A stretch of DNA of 22,799 nucleotides from a virus, in IMG/VR virus record IMGVR_UViG_3300027844_000493, positions 1 through 22,799 of that record. One strand, written 5' to 3'. The notes below the pieces were generated by a model. That model saw only the letters and a program-made list of their open reading frames with translations. It was not told the origin of the DNA and searched no databases. Positions 2,433 to 21,549 of the stretch are shown piece after piece. The position numbers and the translations under genes are program-made. The first letter of the stretch is position 1. Every line of letters starts with the position of its first letter.

Positions 2433-4076
2433 TTAGAATGATCCTCCTGTTACAGGATTCTTCATTACAATTTTAAGAACCTTAGTTGGATCCTTAACCC
2501 ATATAGCAGGCATTGTTTGTGTCATCATTACACGGTAACCATTAAAGTGTCCTGATGATGCAAAGCCTTGAGTTCTTCCCATGTAATCCATAGTTCCATT
2601 TTGATAGAACCATTTCAATGCATTATCCCAAGAAAGTTTCAATAAGTGGATGTTATCACTTCCTTCGTCAGTTACATCAAAAATGATGAAACTATAAGAA
2701 GATAAAGGTCTACCATCTACTAATGGATTCTCAATGTCATTAGTATGTAAGTTATCAAACGCTGGGTTTAATACAAACTTAACATTAGCTAAGAAAGGAA
2801 TTACGTAACTAGTATATGCAAATCCATATCCTAAATCCATTCCTTTTCCAGTGATAGCTCCAATATTATCAGCATTTACAGTCATTGAAGTTCCATTAGC
2901 TTCTGCAGAAATTGCAGCATTTACTAACTGCATACCACCAATACCTGTTTGAACTATTAATTGACGTTTTGGATCTGGTCCATCAAATTCAACTTTACCA
3001 GCATAGAAGTTATATAATTCATTTTTGAACATATCCAAGCTAAATGCTGACTTGTTATATACTCTTTTAAATGAGTTATCTAATTGTTTCCATAAACCTA
3101 CTGATAATCTTAAATCATCCGGCCCGTCTTGTTTAATTCTACCTCCATTACCCCACATTAAGTAAGTCTCAATGTCATTAGCAATTTTAGATAAGTGTGC
3201 AGCTTCCATTCCAGTTAAGAAAGTTCTAGAAAGTGAACCATTATCAAATGCTTTTTTAACATAATCTTTACCCATTACTGATGCAATACCTTCAATAGAA
3301 GATAAAGAAGGATCTAAGTTTTGATCAAAGTTTCTCCAAATCTCTGTTACAGGTACAGTACCGTCAGCATTCATTCCTCCTTTAAGCATTAAGTCTGCTC
3401 TAGATGAAATTGAATAATGAACATGTGCTTCAGCACCTCCAACAAAGTTATAGAATTCTCTAAACCCTGTTCCTACTTGAATATCAGAGAATCTTTCTCC
3501 GTACTCACCTCTTGCAGAACCTTTTCTAAAGAATTTAGTACCTACCTTTAAATACTTATCAGCATCTAATACAGCAGCACTATTATTATTGACAAGTTCA
3601 CAGGTATAAATCCATCCATCACCTGACTGAGTAATATCATCAGCCGTAACGTATAATTCTAGACCATTGTACTTATCATATGTAATGATATCTCCATGAC
3701 CAAACTCTCTTGTGGATAATTTGATCTTAAAAGGTACACCATCAGCACCTAAATCTCTACTACCACCTTCACATATAACATCACCTACAATCTGAGGTAA
3801 TTCTTGTGATATAGGTGTTTGCCATTTGTACTCCCCACGAGCATTGTCCACCATAATTGTATTCTTACCACCAAAAGATGCCATTTGATATAAAGGCATT
3901 TCTACCTTTTGCGTCATTGCCCACAAATCCACTGGACCCATGTCCATTGGTTCTGCGTTACCAAGCATATTAGTTAAGTGATATGAATCAATATGGGAAC
4001 TAGCTTTATAATTTGTGTCTCTGAGGAAGAGACCATTGTTTAGGACTTGTGTTTGTCCGTTTGCTGGTACAGCCAT
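2433..4076 (-). CDS. Major capsid protein (probable)
   Basis: The product has 547 residues, a good length for capsid proteins of crAss-like phages. It starts MAVPANGQTQVLNNGLFLRD and has the mixed alpha/beta, Gly- and Asn-rich composition expected of an HK97-fold shell protein, without membrane segments. The N-terminal part names a repeated aromatic/Met pattern (DLWAMTQKVEMPLYQMASFGG). The central and C-terminal parts are rich in Gly-Asn loops. It lies directly after the acidic scaffold candidate and the portal, the standard TerL-portal-scaffold-capsid order. No capsid motif can be proved by eye, so the call rests on order, length and composition. Its leader contains a CAA-rich repeat and an A8 run, and a strong hairpin follows its stop. 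Both suggest high, independently tuned expression. Confidence 0.8.
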   Translation of the reverse strand: MAVPANGQTQVLNNGLFLRDTNYKASSHIDSYHLTNMLGNAEPMDMGPVDLWAMTQKVEMPLYQMASFGGKNTIMVDNARGEYKWQTPISQELPQIVGDVICEGGSRDLGADGVPFKIKLSTREFGHGDIITYDKYNGLELYVTADDITQSGDGWIYTCELVNNNSAAVLDADKYLKVGTKFFRKGSARGEYGERFSDIQVGTGFREFYNFVGGAEAHVHYSISSRADLMLKGGMNADGTVPVTEIWRNFDQNLDPSLSSIEGIASVMGKDYVKKAFDNGSLSRTFLTGMEAAHLSKIANDIETYLMWGNGGRIKQDGPDDLRLSVGLWKQLDNSFKRVYNKSAFSLDMFKNELYNFYAGKVEFDGPDPKRQLIVQTGIGGMQLVNAAISAEANGTSMTVNADNIGAITGKGMDLGYGFAYTSYVIPFLANVKFVLNPAFDNLHTNDIENPLVDGRPLSSYSFIIFDVTDEGSDNIHLLKLSWDNALKWFYQNGTMDYMGRTQGFASSGHFNGYRVMMTQTMPAIWVKDPTKVLKIVMKNPVTGGSF

Positions 4077-8374: not shown

Positions 8375-10564
8375 TTATTTTAAATTTTTATATGGAGATC
8401 TTGGTCTACGTCCTCCATTTGATTTATTTCTTCCTATATTTCTATACGCTCCTATATTTAATTTACGGAATTTTTGTGTGTTATCCAACATTTCTAGTGA
8501 CTTATCTCTTTCTTTACGTTTTATATATCCTCTATTTGCTTGTTGAATTTTTGAAAAAGCTACAAGTGCTGAAAATGATACAAGTCTATCCACGTTTAAT
8601 CCTGGATAATAATGTGACATTTCAGTTAATAACATTTTATCAGGAATTCTTTCTACACCATATGTTGTTTTATATACTGTACCATCTTCTCCTACCTCTT
8701 CATCTATTGCTTCTCTTAGAAATTCTATTGCATATGATATGAGATGACTTTTAAATAATGTACCTGTATTCTTCCATCCATACTCCTGAAATACATTTGC
8801 ATTTGATCCTAAATCTTTTAAAAATACAATTTGTGATCTTGGTACTAGATATTTTTGTTTCTTTTTAGAAATCATATATTGAATAAATAAGGATATATTA
8901 TTCTCAACTAATGTCCAAGCATTATACCATTCTATAATTAAACATAGTTGCTCATGTGTTTTATTTATATCATCATATCTACCACACCATGATGCAACAA
9001 TCTTATCACCTTCAATAAAAGTTTCTAATCCTTCTAATGTTTCTTTTGTAACTTCAACAGGATTTTTATATACAAAAATGCTACATAAAGAGTCTGATGT
9101 AGTTGTCTTTCCTTCTGACACAGGGTCAATAGAAGCATAGTATGTGCCAAATCCAGGATCCTTAATAGGTCTTTCCCATACAACTAATACACCTGTTTTA
9201 TCTTCTCTCTTTTTATTTACTGGAAATTCATTTATAGGAAGTTTGTTTGATGTAGATGCTTTTATAATACCATGATCTTTTTCTAGTTTAATATGTTCAT
9301 ATGAATATTCCTTATCTTCAATACGTCTAAGTTGTTTAGAAACATATGCTTGTGGAAAGATAGATTCTTTTCTATATGCAAAAGCTTCTGCAATATCTAT
9401 AGGTTTTTGAGATACTCTTAATTGATATTGTTCTCCATCAAGATCTTTCTTCCATTTTACTCTTTCTTTTTTGATTTCTTTTAAAGCTATTTCTACTTTA
9501 GAATTACCATAATCATCTATAAAAGGAGGCATAGACCATTGCTCAGGAATAAATAATCCTGCTATACCAATAGTACCTTTATTATCCATAAGATCTGTTT
9601 CTATACCAAGTATACCATTTTCTTCTGGATATAGTATCATTGTTTTTAGAGGTTTACAATGACTAAGATCTCCAACTGATCCAGCAGCTATAAACATTCC
9701 AGTTGTTAACATACCTGATGACATTGCAGGACGTAAATATTCATAAGTCTTATCCATCTTAGGAGCAATACCTGCTTCTTCATGAAAGAAAAAAGTACAT
9801 GGTCCTCCAACACCAGTTGTTGCATTCTTTTCAAATGAACCTCCTTGAATTTTAGACATAAGACCTTTATGTGTTTTTCTATTATTTATTCTAACTTCTA
9901 TCTTTTGTTCCCATAAAAGAACTTTACCTGGATTAGAAGGTCTATACCATGCAGTATGTTCATTAAGAAATGTCTTATATTCATCTAAGAATTTCCATGA
10001 ACCTTTATCATTTATATAATCTTTAAGGGCAGCTCCAACTTTAAGTACAGCACCTTCTTCAAACCAATACATGTTTAAGAGTTTACCCATATGAAAGTAT
10101 GATGATGCTATCTGTCTTTTCTTAAGTATTGCAACATGTTTATGATTTATCTCAGCCATTATTTCATATAATGCCATATGATACTGAGCATCTCTTACTT
10201 TTGCAAATCCATATGCTTTTTCTTCCTTATCATAAATGGGAAGAAAGTTTAACCACATATAATAGTCTCTTGTTAAATACCAGGTTTCTCCTTTATTATG
10301 ATATATAACTCCCGTTCTACATTTATTCTTTTGATCTTCCCAATATTTATTGAAATCTTTTGACCTGAATGGTGCATCACAGTAATAACCTACATCATTA
10401 AACCTCCTTGCTTCCTCATTAAATATAAAAGATGTATTATTAAACTTATATTTACCAGGTTCTTTAAAAATTGAATCAATAAATTCTCTGAAGTCTTCAA
10501 TTGTTTGAAACTCCGTTTCTTCCCAAACACCATTATTCCATGTTGGGACAATTTTATACATCAA
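8375..10564 (-). CDS. terL: Terminase large subunit (DNA-packaging ATPase and nuclease)
   Basis: The product has 729 residues. The ATPase half shows a P-loop-like strand-turn HVAILKKRQIASSYFHMGK around residues 143-161, with Arg150 and Gln151 as in the R-Q start of terminase P-loops. A Walker B-like strand CTFFFHEE ends at Glu262-Glu263, and a possible coupling motif AAGSVGD follows. The nuclease half has the strand YYASIDPVSEG with Asp480 as the first probable metal ligand. The P-loop lacks the usual G-K-S/T. TerL pumps DNA into the prohead through the portal encoded next to it. The ATG overlaps the end of the co-chaperonin gene by 11 bp, so translation is probably coupled. The next codon is also ATG, so the start could be one residue later. 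Confidence 0.87.
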   Translation of the reverse strand: MMYKIVPTWNNGVWEETEFQTIEDFREFIDSIFKEPGKYKFNNTSFIFNEEARRFNDVGYYCDAPFRSKDFNKYWEDQKNKCRTGVIYHNKGETWYLTRDYYMWLNFLPIYDKEEKAYGFAKVRDAQYHMALYEIMAEINHKHVAILKKRQIASSYFHMGKLLNMYWFEEGAVLKVGAALKDYINDKGSWKFLDEYKTFLNEHTAWYRPSNPGKVLLWEQKIEVRINNRKTHKGLMSKIQGGSFEKNATTGVGGPCTFFFHEEAGIAPKMDKTYEYLRPAMSSGMLTTGMFIAAGSVGDLSHCKPLKTMILYPEENGILGIETDLMDNKGTIGIAGLFIPEQWSMPPFIDDYGNSKVEIALKEIKKERVKWKKDLDGEQYQLRVSQKPIDIAEAFAYRKESIFPQAYVSKQLRRIEDKEYSYEHIKLEKDHGIIKASTSNKLPINEFPVNKKREDKTGVLVVWERPIKDPGFGTYYASIDPVSEGKTTTSDSLCSIFVYKNPVEVTKETLEGLETFIEGDKIVASWCGRYDDINKTHEQLCLIIEWYNAWTLVENNISLFIQYMISKKKQKYLVPRSQIVFLKDLGSNANVFQEYGWKNTGTLFKSHLISYAIEFLREAIDEEVGEDGTVYKTTYGVERIPDKMLLTEMSHYYPGLNVDRLVSFSALVAFSKIQQANRGYIKRKERDKSLEMLDNTQKFRKLNIGAYRNIGRNKSNGGRRPRSPYKNLK

Positions 10565-10832
10565 TAATAACTGCTAAAATATCCCCTTTTCTTATTAAGA
10601 GATGTCTTTCTCCTTCATGATTCATTTCAACAGGTTCTGCAAATTTACCATATTGAATTAAATCTCCAATTCCTACTCCCTCTACCTCATCACCTATTGC
10701 AACAATGTATCCTTTATTTTCTTTAGTTTTTTGTGCATCCGGTATATAAATACCTGTATCACCGTAAGTTTCTTTTTCTGCTAATTGCTTGATTAAGATC
10801 CTGTTTCCTGTTGGTATAATTTGTTGTGCCAT
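10554..10832 (-). CDS. GroES-like co-chaperonin (Cpn10 family)
   Basis: The product has 92 residues, close to the usual 95 or so of GroES. Its layout follows Cpn10: NRILIKQL near the N-terminus, a mobile-loop region EKETYGDTGIYIPDAQKTKE in which TGIYIP corresponds to the GGIxLP chaperonin-binding segment, then GYIVAIGDEV, GIGDLIQYGKFA and the C-terminal strand DILAVI. GroES caps the GroEL barrel during protein folding. Phage T4 gp31 is the known case of a phage co-chaperonin needed for capsid folding. The gene sits in the late operon directly before TerL (11-bp overlap), so it probably helps fold a virion protein with host GroEL. No GroEL partner gene is visible in the window. The assignment is clear; the client protein is inference. 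Confidence 0.85.
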   Translation of the reverse strand: MAQQIIPTGNRILIKQLAEKETYGDTGIYIPDAQKTKENKGYIVAIGDEVEGVGIGDLIQYGKFAEPVEMNHEGERHLLIRKGDILAVIIDV

Positions 10833-15033: not shown

Positions 15034-18000
15034 TTATATTTTTCTTCTTAGTTTATATCTAGGTAATGAACCTCCATATTTTTTCAAATTAAAAAGAAAA
15101 GAGTTATTATCATACTGTTTAGTTATGTTTATTGCATCATCAGTAATACTACTAGGAAATAAAAATTCTTGAAATAATGTTTCTACTGCATCATGATCTC
15201 CTGTTTTATAATTAGCATAATAATTTTTTAAATCTTTTGCAGGTACTTTTACTTGAAATACACCTCCATCTTCGCCTGGTTTAATGTATCTTCTAAAATT
15301 TTGATATACCTTTGGACCAAAAGGATTTGTTGTATAGAATCCAGGCATATTACTATTTGGTCCAAGAGAAGGACCTGTTGGTGTCCTACCAAATCTGTAT
15401 AAATTTACTAAATCATCACCTTCACCAGATAATGGCTGTATATAAGAATTTCTAATACCTGCTTCATTATTTAAAAGTCCCTTACTATAGTTACTTTGTG
15501 TAACAAAATCATCTGTAAGAGAAAATTTTAATTCCGCTTTAGGCATATTATATGATTGAGTTACATGTTTATTTGTTGCTTGTATAACATTATCTTCAAA
15601 CTTAATGTGACTCATCTTATTTGGATTAACTATTTCAGTAGATGATGGAATTACTTTTTCAGTAGATGATGGAATTACTTTTGGATTTGATGTAGTTACA
15701 TTAGCGGGAGTACCCGGTCTGACATACAAATCATCAACTCCTATCTCTGAATTTAATTTTGCATTTTTAGCATTTATAATATCATCAGCAGGTGTAGATT
15801 TTACCACATTAAACACATCATCTACTTTGTCTGCATGTCTAAAATTACCAGCCAAATTATAAGTAGAAAACATACCACCAGCTACACCTAATATATCCCA
15901 TCCTATATCACCAGCAGCACTCCAAGAAGGATTATCAATAAATTCTTGAATATCATCTGGTAAAGCTGTAGCACCTAAATAACCTCCATAATATCCTAAA
16001 GCATCAAAAATACTTGTTCCTGCCCATCTTGTAAGATTAGCAGAACCTAATGCAAAAGCTTCTGGAGCCCAATATGGTGCTGTAACTGCTGCTGTTGCAA
16101 CTGGAACATATTTATATAACATGTCTTCTCCAAATTCATACTTCTCTTGTATTTTACTACCATCATCTGTCATTGCTAAATTTTGATCTGTATTCTCACC
16201 TGCCCAATCAATAATTCTTTGAGTATATGGAGTACCATCTGTATAATGTGTACCAACAGGATTACCATCTTCATCTGCATAGAATACTCTATTAGTTCCA
16301 GTTTTATCACTTATATTTCTAACATCATTTCCAAAACGCCATGAAGGATCGTAAGTTCTATTATTATCTATATTATTATAATAATTCCAAGCTCCATCTA
16401 CAATTCCAAGACCATCTCCATGAACTCTATCAGACCAATTCCATTCTTGTGCAAAACCTGCAGCTGCTGCTGGATTAAGGGGATTATAATAATGTCCAGT
16501 ACCTATCATTAATGGATCCCAAGTATCAGGAGTTGCTGCGTGTTTTAATTCTTCAAGAGTCCATTCAGGAGTCCAACCGTTTAATATATCACCACTATTT
16601 AATGATCCTTTTATGTTAGTGGGTTTGTCATCATTAATTTCTATTTCCTTAACAGTTCCTGGAGCAGTATCTAACCAGGCTTTATCTGGATCATAAGTAT
16701 TAAAATCAAAACCTTCAGGAAGATAATTCTTACCTTCAATACCAACATTATATTTCTTATTTAATTTATCTATAGTATTAAATTGTCCTGAATGAGGATC
16801 AAAACCTAAAGTAGAATTGGATTGAATAACTTCAGTTGGTAATTTACTTTTACCCTCTCTCATATATATTTGATTAGCAACATCTATTCCATATAACTCA
16901 ATATTTTTAACATAATCATTATAACTTGTAGATTCATGTCCTTTATCTTCATCATTAATATCTATATCATATAAATTATATGAATCACCATAAGTATCTA
17001 ATTCATCTACAACTACTTCATTAGGTTCTTCATAATAAGTACCTTCTTCAATCTTTTGATGAAGCTCATCTATTTTCTTTTGTTTCTTAGTTCTAAATAA
17101 ATTTTTGACTTTTTTGTTAAACGAACCTTTCTTTTGAAACTTGGGTATCTCTATCTCTGCACCCAATTTAAAATATGTTAGATCATTATGTTTAAGTATA
17201 TCTTTTAGTTCTGTTCCATACATGGCTTTTAATCTCTTACCAGTATCACCTTTTACTATTGTATGTTTAACTATTTCTCCTCCCTTTCTATATAAATGTT
17301 TTATATCTGAGTCATATCCATAGTCAGGAAATATAGTATTGATATCTCTAAACTGGTCCAAATTATATTCATCAACATTAAAAGTATTATTCATTTGTCT
17401 AAATTTAGTTTCTTGATCAATTCTTTTCATTATATCATCAAATTGATTTGTATAAGATTCTACTCCCCTAAATAACTCATAATGATTTGGTGATATGGAT
17501 TTATCTAATGTTTGTTTACCATCTACATATGGAAATAATCCCATATTTTGATTAACATATTCTTGAGCTCTTACTTCAGATAAATATGGATACTTTTCTA
17601 GATTATCTAACTCTAAATTACCATTATCTCTATTTACTCTATATGTATCTGTACCAGCTACTCCTGCATTAATATCTATTGTCTTATCATAAGCCCAATC
17701 TTGTTGATCATAATAGTCTTTTCTACCAAGTGAACCCTGTTTATGTCTACCTGCACCTGTTCCTGCACCATCTTCTTTCATATAAGTATCTAAACTCCTC
17801 CATTCAGGATCAAGACCTATTAATGCCCATAGAGCAAGATCATTTCCTTCAACTTCCTCACCATTCCATAATATAGGATTACCTGTAAATGGACTTAAAA
17901 CTTTTCCATGCTTATGTTTGTGTTCTTCAGTACCTTCTGTATAATATGTTGACTCATAGGCATCAGCAAAGTGATCTGTAAATGATTTTGGATCATCCAT

Positions 18001-21000
18001 TCTCCATTCTCCAAATGTTACTTCAGTTTTGGATTTCCTAAAGTTTTTAGCGTGTTTTGTTAAATTATTATATGTCTTTTGATTAGGATTCTTTTTATAC
18101 TCTCTTATTAGATCTTTTGTCTCATCATCAAACTTTTTAAGATATAATTCCACATCACTTTGAGAATTACCTGAATACCATTTTTCTTTTTCATCTTGAG
18201 TACCAAACCAATCATTAAAATTACCTTTAATTCCATCCACAAGCATAGTTCTTCCTTCATTAGCAAACCAGTCACCTGATCTTTCAAACTTTCCCTTATC
18301 TTCATCACTATATTTACTTAGGAACATTAAATGAGTTAGTTCATCTACAAAACTTTCTACTGTATCAAATCTACCACCTGTATTAGTTATATTATTATTA
18401 GTCTTACCTAGATCTATAATATTATTATAAGTTCTAGTTGTTGGTCTTGAACCTTGTGTAGTACCCTCCCAATTACCAAGAATACCATCAGGATCATATC
18501 TACCATTTGGATCTGTCCATATTTGTTTCATACCAAGTTCTATCCATAAATCTTTTAATTTTTGTATTGAGCCAGGATAATCTTTAAATCTTGGATCAGC
18601 TGGTATGATAACTTCCCAAAAATCTCTAGTCATCTCATCAGGATAATCTTCTTTTGTAGCTGTAGTTTTTAATTGATTATTCCATAGAAATTCTCCTTTA
18701 TCTCCTAATTCTGTACGTGCTTTATTAAATGCTACACCAAAATCAGGTTCATCATTCCATGTATCATCACCTGTAAAATAATCATATGTTCTTTTTCCAG
18801 CACTATAAGCACCTTGAACACCACTCATTAAATGTCCAAATGCAGTTTTATTATGTTTTGCATTCTCTTCTCTATCTGCAGTATTCTTTGCATACCCAGC
18901 ATCTCTTTTTTCTAGTCTTATAGTACTTTCTATATGACTCCTTATACGATTTATATCCCATTTATTATATTTAATTTCTCCTCTATTCTTTCTTGATTTA
19001 AACATATCAGGGAAATTTTTCTTTTGATAATCTATAAGCTCTTGATCTGTCCAAGTTTCATAACCTTCTTGTGCTATTGGTAATTCACCTCCGTATTGTT
19101 TTTTTAGATATAATCTAGATTTACGTTTATCCCCATACTCAGTTGTTCCTCTTTCAAGAAAGTCTCCATACAGTTCCTCATATTCTGTTTGAGTTCCTGA
19201 CCAAATCAATCTACCTGCTTGATCTCTTAAATTTATTTCAGATTTACCATCATCTCCTTTTATATACCGTCCTCCACGCTTACCTCTCATTTCTATTGTA
19301 TAATAGTCAGAGTCATGTTTAATCAAATCGTATGGTGGTGCCTTTATAAGTTGGTCATCATCAATATTGGTAGGAAGTGATTGCATACCCATTGGAGGGA
19401 TTTTTGTAGGTGAGAAGTAATCTACTTCTTTTGTCAATTTTTTCTTTTCTTCCCTGTTTGGGTACCCAAATCCTACATCTATCTGTTTTACTTTAGTAGC
19501 ATCAGGAATTTCTTCTACAGGAACCCAACCTATATCATCCCAAGGAACATATTCATAGCGATCATTTACTTCTGGATTCTCAAACTGTAATCCCTCAGAC
19601 ATTTTCTGTTCTAATGTAAGCTGAACTGGATGATCTAACCATTGGGGTCCATCTTCAGTATAATGTAAATACTTACCGTCCTTTTCAGTTCCTTCAGGTT
19701 CGTATCCTAATTCTTCATAAGTTTGAAACTCTCCTTTCTTTCCTTTTAAAAACATTTCAATTACATCAATACCAGATTCGTCAGAGTTATCAAATATGTT
19801 AAAGAATTTCTTTAGTTTTTCAATACTAGATCCACCTTCTTGAAACTTTTCAATACCTGTTTGAGCTTTTGGTAAAGACCCACCTTGTTTAAAATCTTTA
19901 ATAAGATTATTATACCATTCTTCTAATTTTTCTTTATCATTTCCTATTGCTACTTTTTCATTAATTAATTTCTCATAATCTTTTGAAAACAGTCTTTCTA
20001 TCTCACCACTAAGTTCTATCATTTCTTCTTCTGTTAGACATCCTTTACATTCATTACTCAAACCTCTATCATCATTGGTACTTGAGAGAATGTTACTAAA
20101 AGATCTTGGTGCAAATTTACCTGTTTTAGTATTAACAAGATTACCTGATTCATCTAATGTTGATGTTTGATATATACCACCTGTTTTTGAAAAATCATTA
20201 GGATCAAAAAACATTTCATCAAATGTTTGATCAGTACCATATTGTTTTTCTCTATTTTGGAATCCCGCCCATGATCCCAATTGTGATTTTGTAGTAACTC
20301 CTGATTCTTGTGTTATTTCAGAAGCCTCATCTGTTTGATAACAAGATCCCATATAACAAACAACATTATTATCTTCAGGTAAATATTCTTTTAGTACTTC
20401 TGCAAATGTGTCTGTTACTCCTGGAGTATTAGTATATCCTCCCCCCTGATCTTCTCTATTACGTATACGAGATAATTCAGAAGGCATAATTTGACCTATC
20501 TTACCATCACCATGTTGCATTATTATGATCTCACCGTTAGGATCCATCCCTTCAATATATGAACCATATCTTGTAGCAATTTCAGCACTACTTAATTTAT
20601 TTTTGTTGCGGAGATTAAACATATCAGAATTAGTATCTCTAAGAGTTTCGTAAGCACCATATCCTTCATTACTTTGTTGGGCTATTTTTAACCTGTCATA
20701 CTCTTCTCCATCCATTTCATTATTCATATACTGTTTAAACCAAAGTTTCCTTTGGATTTCAATAGGGTCTGCATCTAGTGCATCCTGTGTAGTTTTTAGA
20801 TCAGCATTGTATTTATCATTATACTTTGTATTTGTTCCATGAGCAGTCCAATTACCTTCACCATATTTTTTATTGAGATGTGGTGTCATTCTTTCTAGGT
20901 CACTAGAAAAATATCCTTGTGTATCATTATCATCATATAAAATAACGGCTTTCTTATTTCCAGTATAAGTTTTATCAGTATTAGATGTAGTTTCTTTAAT

Positions 21001-21549
21001 CATTTCTGACTGAACTTGATTTGGATAAAACATACCATCTATCCATTCACCTTCACTATAAGAAGATTCCCCTAAAGTCTGAGCCTTAGGTAAACTCCCC
21101 CCTTGTTTAAAATTATATGTTAAGCCTGCCGAATATGAGGGTTTATTTCCTGTCTCATAGTTTGCAGATGCATCAAAAGTTAACCTATCATTTAATTTAT
21201 AAGATCCACCAACTCCTCCACTAAGTCCCATATCAATAATAGGACTACCCCACTGAGTAAGATTTCCCTCAGGATTCCAATTTACATTTACATCAGGATT
21301 TATATTTCCCTGAATACTAAATCTATCATTTGAATATGAAGGATTAGTTATGGTATTATAAACATCTGAGACTTCAGTAGCTGTATCTTGTAAAGTAGAT
21401 ACAATCCCTGAACCATCTCCATATGTTGGTAAACTCCCCCCTCTTCTAAATTGATTCATTTCATTACCGCCTTGACCTTCACCGTTACCACCCATTTCTT
21501 TTACGAGATCTAGATAACGTTCCACATTACTGTTTTTTAACTTCCTCAT
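15034..21549 (-). CDS. Giant multidomain virion or ejected protein with GGSLPxAQ repeats
   Basis: The product has 2171 residues and is the first gene of the leftward block. The motif GGSLPxAQ or a variant occurs at about residues 37-43, 150-157, 556-563, 820-827 and 2159-2165, with weaker forms at 572-575 and 1423-1426. Segments between copies differ. Residues 75-147 are beta-barrel-like. About 198-410 is a caspase-like candidate with His346 and Cys403. About 1069-1214 is a zincin-like segment with DELTH and TEEHKHKHG. Residues 1428-1472 are a LysM domain. About 1814-1905 is Ala/Gly-rich and hydrophobic. About 2045-2145 is ADP-ribosyltransferase-like (Arg2052, Tyr2072-Thr-Thr, Glu2128). The tail is basic. 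There is no signal peptide. A large mosaic phage protein of this kind is probably carried in the virion and may be ejected. All domain calls are by motif; overall function is inference. Confidence 0.8.
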   Translation of the reverse strand: MRKLKNSNVERYLDLVKEMGGNGEGQGGNEMNQFRRGGSLPTYGDGSGIVSTLQDTATEVSDVYNTITNPSYSNDRFSIQGNINPDVNVNWNPEGNLTQWGSPIIDMGLSGGVGGSYKLNDRLTFDASANYETGNKPSYSAGLTYNFKQGGSLPKAQTLGESSYSEGEWIDGMFYPNQVQSEMIKETTSNTDKTYTGNKKAVILYDDNDTQGYFSSDLERMTPHLNKKYGEGNWTAHGTNTKYNDKYNADLKTTQDALDADPIEIQRKLWFKQYMNNEMDGEEYDRLKIAQQSNEGYGAYETLRDTNSDMFNLRNKNKLSSAEIATRYGSYIEGMDPNGEIIIMQHGDGKIGQIMPSELSRIRNREDQGGGYTNTPGVTDTFAEVLKEYLPEDNNVVCYMGSCYQTDEASEITQESGVTTKSQLGSWAGFQNREKQYGTDQTFDEMFFDPNDFSKTGGIYQTSTLDESGNLVNTKTGKFAPRSFSNILSSTNDDRGLSNECKGCLTEEEMIELSGEIERLFSKDYEKLINEKVAIGNDKEKLEEWYNNLIKDFKQGGSLPKAQTGIEKFQEGGSSIEKLKKFFNIFDNSDESGIDVIEMFLKGKKGEFQTYEELGYEPEGTEKDGKYLHYTEDGPQWLDHPVQLTLEQKMSEGLQFENPEVNDRYEYVPWDDIGWVPVEEIPDATKVKQIDVGFGYPNREEKKKLTKEVDYFSPTKIPPMGMQSLPTNIDDDQLIKAPPYDLIKHDSDYYTIEMRGKRGGRYIKGDDGKSEINLRDQAGRLIWSGTQTEYEELYGDFLERGTTEYGDKRKSRLYLKKQYGGELPIAQEGYETWTDQELIDYQKKNFPDMFKSRKNRGEIKYNKWDINRIRSHIESTIRLEKRDAGYAKNTADREENAKHNKTAFGHLMSGVQGAYSAGKRTYDYFTGDDTWNDEPDFGVAFNKARTELGDKGEFLWNNQLKTTATKEDYPDEMTRDFWEVIIPADPRFKDYPGSIQKLKDLWIELGMKQIWTDPNGRYDPDGILGNWEGTTQGSRPTTRTYNNIIDLGKTNNNITNTGGRFDTVESFVDELTHLMFLSKYSDEDKGKFERSGDWFANEGRTMLVDGIKGNFNDWFGTQDEKEKWYSGNSQSDVELYLKKFDDETKDLIREYKKNPNQKTYNNLTKHAKNFRKSKTEVTFGEWRMDDPKSFTDHFADAYESTYYTEGTEEHKHKHGKVLSPFTGNPILWNGEEVEGNDLALWALIGLDPEWRSLDTYMKEDGAGTGAGRHKQGSLGRKDYYDQQDWAYDKTIDINAGVAGTDTYRVNRDNGNLELDNLEKYPYLSEVRAQEYVNQNMGLFPYVDGKQTLDKSISPNHYELFRGVESYTNQFDDIMKRIDQETKFRQMNNTFNVDEYNLDQFRDINTIFPDYGYDSDIKHLYRKGGEIVKHTIVKGDTGKRLKAMYGTELKDILKHNDLTYFKLGAEIEIPKFQKKGSFNKKVKNLFRTKKQKKIDELHQKIEEGTYYEEPNEVVVDELDTYGDSYNLYDIDINDEDKGHESTSYNDYVKNIELYGIDVANQIYMREGKSKLPTEVIQSNSTLGFDPHSGQFNTIDKLNKKYNVGIEGKNYLPEGFDFNTYDPDKAWLDTAPGTVKEIEINDDKPTNIKGSLNSGDILNGWTPEWTLEELKHAATPDTWDPLMIGTGHYYNPLNPAAAAGFAQEWNWSDRVHGDGLGIVDGAWNYYNNIDNNRTYDPSWRFGNDVRNISDKTGTNRVFYADEDGNPVGTHYTDGTPYTQRIIDWAGENTDQNLAMTDDGSKIQEKYEFGEDMLYKYVPVATAAVTAPYWAPEAFALGSANLTRWAGTSIFDALGYYGGYLGATALPDDIQEFIDNPSWSAAGDIGWDILGVAGGMFSTYNLAGNFRHADKVDDVFNVVKSTPADDIINAKNAKLNSEIGVDDLYVRPGTPANVTTSNPKVIPSSTEKVIPSSTEIVNPNKMSHIKFEDNVIQATNKHVTQSYNMPKAELKFSLTDDFVTQSNYSKGLLNNEAGIRNSYIQPLSGEGDDLVNLYRFGRTPTGPSLGPNSNMPGFYTTNPFGPKVYQNFRRYIKPGEDGGVFQVKVPAKDLKNYYANYKTGDHDAVETLFQEFLFPSSITDDAINITKQYDNNSFLFNLKKYGGSLPRYKLRRKI
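15634..15681. repeat. Tandem 24-bp direct repeat inside the giant gene
   Basis: Two identical 24-bp copies (15634-15657 and 15658-15681) encode KVIPSSTE twice, at about residues 1957-1972. It looks like a recent in-frame duplication in a Pro/Ser/Thr linker before the C-terminal domain. Confidence 0.85.

Follow-up and report, generated by a model that had tools for sequence, protein, structure and literature searches.

The DNA analysed here, IMG/VR virus record IMGVR_UViG_3300027844_000493 (22,799 bases, hereafter the window), carries as its largest gene an open reading frame (ORF) for a 2171-residue protein that is punctuated by a short peptide motif built around GGSLPKAQ. This motif is almost certainly a real and selected peptide lying at module borders, and we lean, tentatively, towards reading it as a docking peptide of ejected (internal virion) proteins. 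The initial annotation, made from the sequence alone, had proposed a punctuation mark of one of three kinds: a processing site, a docking signal for virion loading, or a boundary where modules are exchanged. The boundary holds; docking is plausible and is the function that we prefer, and processing is less likely. The six strings that it quoted are all present, at residues 35, 148, 554, 818, 1421, and 2157. The gene and its motif copies are:

15034..21549, minus strand: gene for the 2171-residue modular protein with the motif copies (putatively ejected cargo); it lies upstream of a lysin-like gene and of the terminase large subunit gene (TerL)
21412..21447, minus strand: motif copy 1, an N-terminal variant (residues 35-46, RRGGSLPTYGDG)
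21073..21108, minus strand: motif copy 2 (residues 148-159, KQGGSLPKAQTL)
19855..19890, minus strand: motif copy 3 (residues 554-565, KQGGSLPKAQTG), where the homology of the preceding module ends
19063..19098, minus strand: motif copy 4 (residues 818-829, QYGGELPIAQEG)
17260..17289, minus strand: motif variant 5 (residues 1421-1430, RKGGEIVKHT), where the homology of a LysM-like module begins exactly
15037..15081, minus strand: C-terminal motif variant (residues 2157-2171, KYGGSLPRYKLRRKI)

The reduced pattern GGx[LI]P occurs five times in this protein against 0.09 expected, a count that none of 20,000 shuffles reached, and it occurs nowhere else in the window when all six frames are scanned. 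Three copies (148, 554, and 818) fit the full consensus given below, and those at residue 35 and at the C-terminus fit it partially. The string RKGGEIVKH at 1421 is a variant ahead of the LysM-like module; two relatives have RYGGSVRKH and EKGGSIKH in its place. At full length, the protein gave no useful E-value with any Pfam or PHROG family and matched neither a named phage nor a PDB sequence, and peptide patterns retrieved no relative of the entire protein from IMG/VR.

The initial annotation had called for a search of the motif across phages and a test of its position relative to domain borders, and both gave positive results. An exact degenerate pattern run over all IMG/VR contigs matched 76 stretches, and dozens of related phage contigs encode large proteins with the motif, so the motif-bearing relatives on which the earlier idea depended do exist; the long contigs among them are mostly of about 110-125 kb. 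A terminase matching that of the window is present in 24 of the 29 pattern-bearing records, which include duplicates of one another, mostly at 55-78% identity and at 32-36% in two. The consensus of 163 distinct sites is [KR]-x-G-G-[SEQ]-L-P-K-[AYF]-Q-x-G-x-[E] (G 96%, G 85%, x, L 93%, P 82%, K 75%, A 79%, Q 94%, x, G 74%), with an enrichment of E at position +11 (37%); KYGGSLPKAQDGKE is a form of the motif peptide. Motif proteins have from one to four or more copies, which are at least 89 residues apart (one spacing below 90 residues, against 10.6 expected). The sites are mostly internal, with 1 of 140 within 40 residues of the C-terminus, and a general enrichment of the full motif at C-termini, which the window protein had suggested, was rejected (1 observed against about 4.5 expected). 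Several proteins have half-motifs immediately after the start methionine (MKKLRKAQKGKE, MARKLKKLAKAQKGYVGE, and MKKYKITSIPQLLPKAQTGE). We also rejected a sortase LPXTG signal, because the motif is internal and reads LPKAQ, and is not a C-terminal LPxTG with a hydrophobic stretch and a charged tail. A cellular origin of the motif is unsupported: the 43 pattern matches in genome_contigs, where we estimate that roughly 30 would occur by chance, are scattered over unrelated taxa, and only one is strong and in frame. This match (L331; contig WLWP01000004.1, 114,697 bases, 33% G+C) is binned in a Pseudomonadales metagenome-assembled genome and is likely a phage of the same group, either misbinned or giving a hint at the host.

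The window protein can be aligned to its relatives only piecewise, although the terminases of the related contigs are mostly 55-100% identical to that of the window. The pieces begin and end at the motif at about twice the chance rate, also when the motif is masked. With masking, in about 100 nonredundant proteins, 108 alignment ends lie near motifs against 44 expected, and 88 starts against 48; the maxima over 300 random placements were 68 and 70, respectively. A control using GG dipeptides gave means of 51 ends and 49 starts (maxima 68 and 69). These statistics count high-scoring segment pairs from related proteins, a dependence that collapsing and masking lower without removing it. The boundary reading is further borne out by individual cassettes found in differing contexts, and the motif thus lies at the borders of interchangeable modules. 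The modules of the window protein are:

21109..21372, minus strand: barrel-like module (residues about 60-147), ending in SAGLTYNF directly before motif copy 2
19915..20982, minus strand: module with an invariant His-Gly (IIIMQHG) and CYMGxC (residues 190-545)
19099..19416, minus strand: module (residues 712-817) with about 46% identity to residues 536-657 of the relative L173
17077..17280, minus strand: LysM-like module (residues 1424-1491), with a weak Pfam LysM match (E=0.039)
15775..16131, minus strand: hydrophobic module (residues 1807-1925), common to G042 and L165 and in part (1859-1925) to G014

The barrel-like module (YadA_anchor, E=5.8e-4, with a bit score under the curated cut-off) is joined to five different C-terminal partners, in the window, G029, L209, L225, and L237, and the joint is always at the GG. 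The module of residues 190-545 has counterparts in G010, G020, and L295 at 28.9-39% identity. Residues 190-565 are matched in proteins of G010, G028, and G020, and in each of them the homology ends at the motif; in L295, the module is flanked by two motifs (130 and 501) and has other neighbours, and in G010 it opens the protein, right after MARKLKKLAKAQKG. It has no Pfam or PDB match, and by eye it resembles clan CD cysteine peptidases, a putative assignment. Residues 712-837 are matched in L173, where the homology ends about 10 residues past the motif core of that protein. The LysM-like module is 73% identical to that of G014 (1421-1491) and 57% to that of L237 (1421-1478), and the homology with G014 runs from RKGG/RYGG onwards, the preceding sequences being unrelated. 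Elsewhere in the group, the 2737-residue protein of G010 (31507-39720) corresponds to two ORFs in G020 (44980-47727 and 41381-44944), with the frame change adjoining a motif copy; this may be a true fission or a sequencing error.

Selection has acted on the peptide. Across 134 aligned pairs (30-75% identity), the motif core reaches 70% identity and its flanks 43%. Codon identity between motif copies is 0.494, against 0.502 expected from background codon usage, and two identical peptides of the window are encoded differently (e.g., Ser as AGT or TCT). This agreement at background level indicates that the peptide is under selection and the DNA is not. It also bears on whether the repeated DNA, rather than the peptide, drives the exchange of modules: the exchange does take place at the motif, as a recombination site would predict, but the codon comparison refutes such a site as the main driver, and we consider this explanation extremely improbable.

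The genomic position of the motif proteins points to the contents of the virion. In crAss001, the gene order is gp44 (muzzle), gp45 and gp46 (cargo), gp47, gp49, and gp50 (PMC10172136). In 13 of the 14 related records with both anchors, the slot of the motif proteins lies between a putative muzzle protein of the Lbo-JY46 type and a homologue of crAss001 gp49; in the fourteenth, G029, the block is split across the contig ends. We take the large Lbo-JY46-type protein as the muzzle by position, as it directly follows a ring-like gene. The putative muzzle gene is followed by typically three genes for large motif proteins (families A, B, and C), then by genes for proteins of about 1000-1190 and 4400-5400 residues and by the gp49 homologue; the more distant G037 deviates from this order and has no strong site. 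Of the sites with strong scores, 36 are inside the slot and 13 outside, the latter belonging mostly to accessory genes or to G029, whose block wraps around the contig ends. The motif is thus mainly limited to three adjacent modular genes of the cargo slot and one accessory gene. The window gene is of the accessory kind: it lies outside the slot, close to TerL and the lysin-like gene, an arrangement also seen in G001 and G028. A motif-bearing ORF occurs at the same location in relatives, and the window protein has modules in common with the slot proteins that other phages encode. The occupation of the relatives' cargo slot makes a docking signal for virion loading plausible, and the giant motif-bearing proteins are probably carried inside the virion. 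Families A, B, and C also each have their own conserved C-terminal tail (about DKLNRxYYxxAKxxGM.. in A, xGGExxIDxDTLxxLIAAGADIEIL in B, and KGKEIKKxxxPFYTGK or KYGSELRxx in C), which could be further docking tails. Small proteins of 135-275 residues in the same phages (ORFs 10029, 11386, and 12232 of G005, the contig of L037, and ORF 6244 of G026) share a second glycine-rich terminal signature, a tail of about xGG[AS]xGP[HN]G[IM]L.

The domain content of the motif proteins is varied. Among 30 of them, Pfam identified LysM in eight, SLT transglycosylase in six, and YkuD (L,D-transpeptidase) in four, with SET, M91, NlpC/P60, and PG-binding domains occurring as single cases; PHROGs returned endolysins, transglycosylases, and an 'internal virion protein with endolysin domain'. 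For phage entry proteins, SET domains and effector-type M91 peptidase domains are unusual. An AlphaFold model of a family C protein (12 aligned sequences) has a folded N-terminal domain with a predicted local distance difference test (pLDDT) score of about 70-88, then residues 253-307 below 50, which hold the motif (at about residue 266), and a helical region after them. In this single case, of mean pLDDT 56, the motif appears to lie in a flexible, low-confidence linker next to the folded domain. A stretch rich in P and Q directly precedes the motif in many members of the family C alignment, and P, Q, and M are abundant in some of the sequence upstream of motifs. Foldseek returned no meaningful match to the family C model, and the model of residues 130-700 of the window protein (mean pLDDT 38) is too poor to place the motif copies.

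The docking reading, which we hold tentatively, would have the motif as a short linear peptide that both joins and tags the interchangeable modules of ejected proteins. Every module would bring its own copy within a flexible linker, and the copies would bind one conserved partner inside the virion, putatively the portal, the tail-barrel, or the inner face of the capsid. Diverse wall-degrading and effector modules might thereby be loaded, kept in order, and extruded through the tail. The stronger form of this proposal, a plug-and-play grammar in which each ejected module has the same docking peptide and one conserved virion part recognises it, is possible but more doubtful. A common docking tag would explain why modules are freely exchanged as the tag stays constant, and the fixed sequence amid variable modules, the flexible context in one model, and the half-motifs after start codons speak for docking. 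Several observations weigh against it. The number of copies varies from protein to protein. Full motifs show no overall enrichment at C-termini (1 against about 4.5 expected) and a weak excess at N-termini (11 against 5.7). The motif is absent from Fpv20, Lbo-JY46, the examined parts of crAss001 and phi14:2, and the first two thirds of csAssE-Sib. The gp49 homologue and the block proteins of about 1100 and 5000 residues have no strong copies, which means that loading cannot depend on the motif universally. As for the window protein, the product of an accessory gene that shares modules with slot proteins, its own loading into the virion would follow at one further remove.

Two other functions of the peptide have to be weighed against docking. 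In the first, a phage or host protease would cut at the motif, in the prohead or after ejection, and turn a polyprotein into separate modules. The position between modules, in a low-confidence linker in at least one model, fits this, and a protease might recognise the strongly conserved A-Q-x-G core, with the E at +11 read as G-x-E. Self-cutting multi-effector proteins with a built-in clan CD peptidase exist, and, like the window protein, they consist of modules strung together at repeated junctions; a module of the window protein, with clan CD-like His-Gly and GxC features, is similar to their peptidase by eye. However, this peptidase-like module, of putative fold, is rare among motif proteins, having been seen at just a handful of loci. 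Most protease sites are narrower than the motif, which also persists within a few residues of N-termini, where cutting achieves nothing. Proteases of the S78 or ClpP families were not found in 17 related records, in searches whose positive controls worked; in the search for S77 proteases, the control was silent. The AxE site position of SPN3US (PMC10052503) is not conserved in the motif either. We therefore favour docking over processing, because no head protease of the S78 or ClpP type was found and because the motif persists at N-termini, where a cut is not required, and we regard processing as rather unlikely. The remaining alternative, a passive, flexible joint that tolerates the insertion of modules and unfolding on extrusion without any specific partner, is consistent with the domain-length spacing of the copies, their border position, and the P-, Q-, and M-rich sequence upstream of some of them. 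Such a joint would not need a near-fixed L-P-K-A-Q-x-G, yet this sequence is kept across phages whose terminases differ by 25-45%, and a purely passive role seems slightly less likely still than processing.

The phage itself (about 30% G+C) has matches in PHROGs to terminase, portal, capsid, and GroES-like genes, of which the following were used or located:

8375..10564, minus strand: terminase large subunit (TerL; phrog_6681, E=1.5e-64), used to define the lineage
2433..4076, minus strand: major capsid protein (phrog_11589, E=6e-30)
10554-10832, overlapping the start of TerL: GroES-like co-chaperonin gene (phrog_3188, E=1.9e-15)

TerL is about 25% identical to that of crAss-like and Flavobacterium phages. 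The nearest major capsid protein is that of Leptolyngbya phage Lbo-JY46 (27.8% identity), and the match to csAssE-Sib is weak. Together with the gp49 homologue of the relatives, these similarities suggest a lineage of uncultured crAss-like phages. Searching IMG/VR with the terminase gave at least 596 related stretches, of which 80 loci were retained, and this makes the window phage a member of a large uncultured group. One of the records, G035 (IMGVR_UViG_3300030098_004828, 245,646 bases), carries a pair of terminase genes separated by about 127 kb, both with 74% identity to that of the window, and it probably consists of two phage genomes joined at assembly.

Known systems resemble parts of this arrangement. 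The crAss001 proteins gp45 and gp46 occupy the same slot as the relatives' motif proteins, between the putative muzzle and the RNA-polymerase-associated genes that include the gp49 homologue, and only fragments of one cargo protein were resolved (PMC10172136). They are large internal proteins presumed to be ejected before the DNA, as we propose for the motif proteins. However, phmmer searches with gp45, gp46, and their phi14:2 counterparts found no sequence relation to motif proteins, which differ from this cargo in being mosaics of wall-degrading and other modules. In T4 and SPN3US (PMC10052503), a short conserved peptide has likewise been proposed to direct internal proteins to the head, but it belongs to N-terminal propeptides that a prohead protease removes at a defined site. 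The present motif recurs along the protein and is mostly internal, and no S78- or ClpP-type protease was found. The targeting peptides of encapsulins (PMC7925596) are short and flexible, often with a G-S-L core, and dock cargo inside an HK97-fold shell. They are C-terminal and their binding to the shell is demonstrated, whereas here binding is only proposed and the likeness is limited to G-S-L. The Dar proteins of P1 (PMC12810830) are internal head proteins packaged in order and co-injected with the DNA, but DarA and Hdf domains, rather than a repeated peptide, are what their packaging requires. Short targeting peptides, as in T4 and encapsulins, and mosaic ejection proteins are thus of kinds already known. 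A repeated internal tag joining exchangeable ejected modules is undescribed in the open papers searched and, to our knowledge, elsewhere; a text search of the open literature found no paper using GGSLPKAQ in this sense, and a 34-residue tandem motif query had no match among named phages.

The motif splits giant proteins that cannot otherwise be aligned into discrete modules, which can be annotated singly. It also bears on how large phages, the crAss-like ones in particular, pick the proteins to be loaded and ejected ahead of the DNA. If the docking reading is true, the conserved tag predicts a single receptor, and the ejected proteins of uncultured phages would be recognisable by sequence alone. 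A lineage could then exchange its entry enzymes and effectors without altering the machine that loads them.

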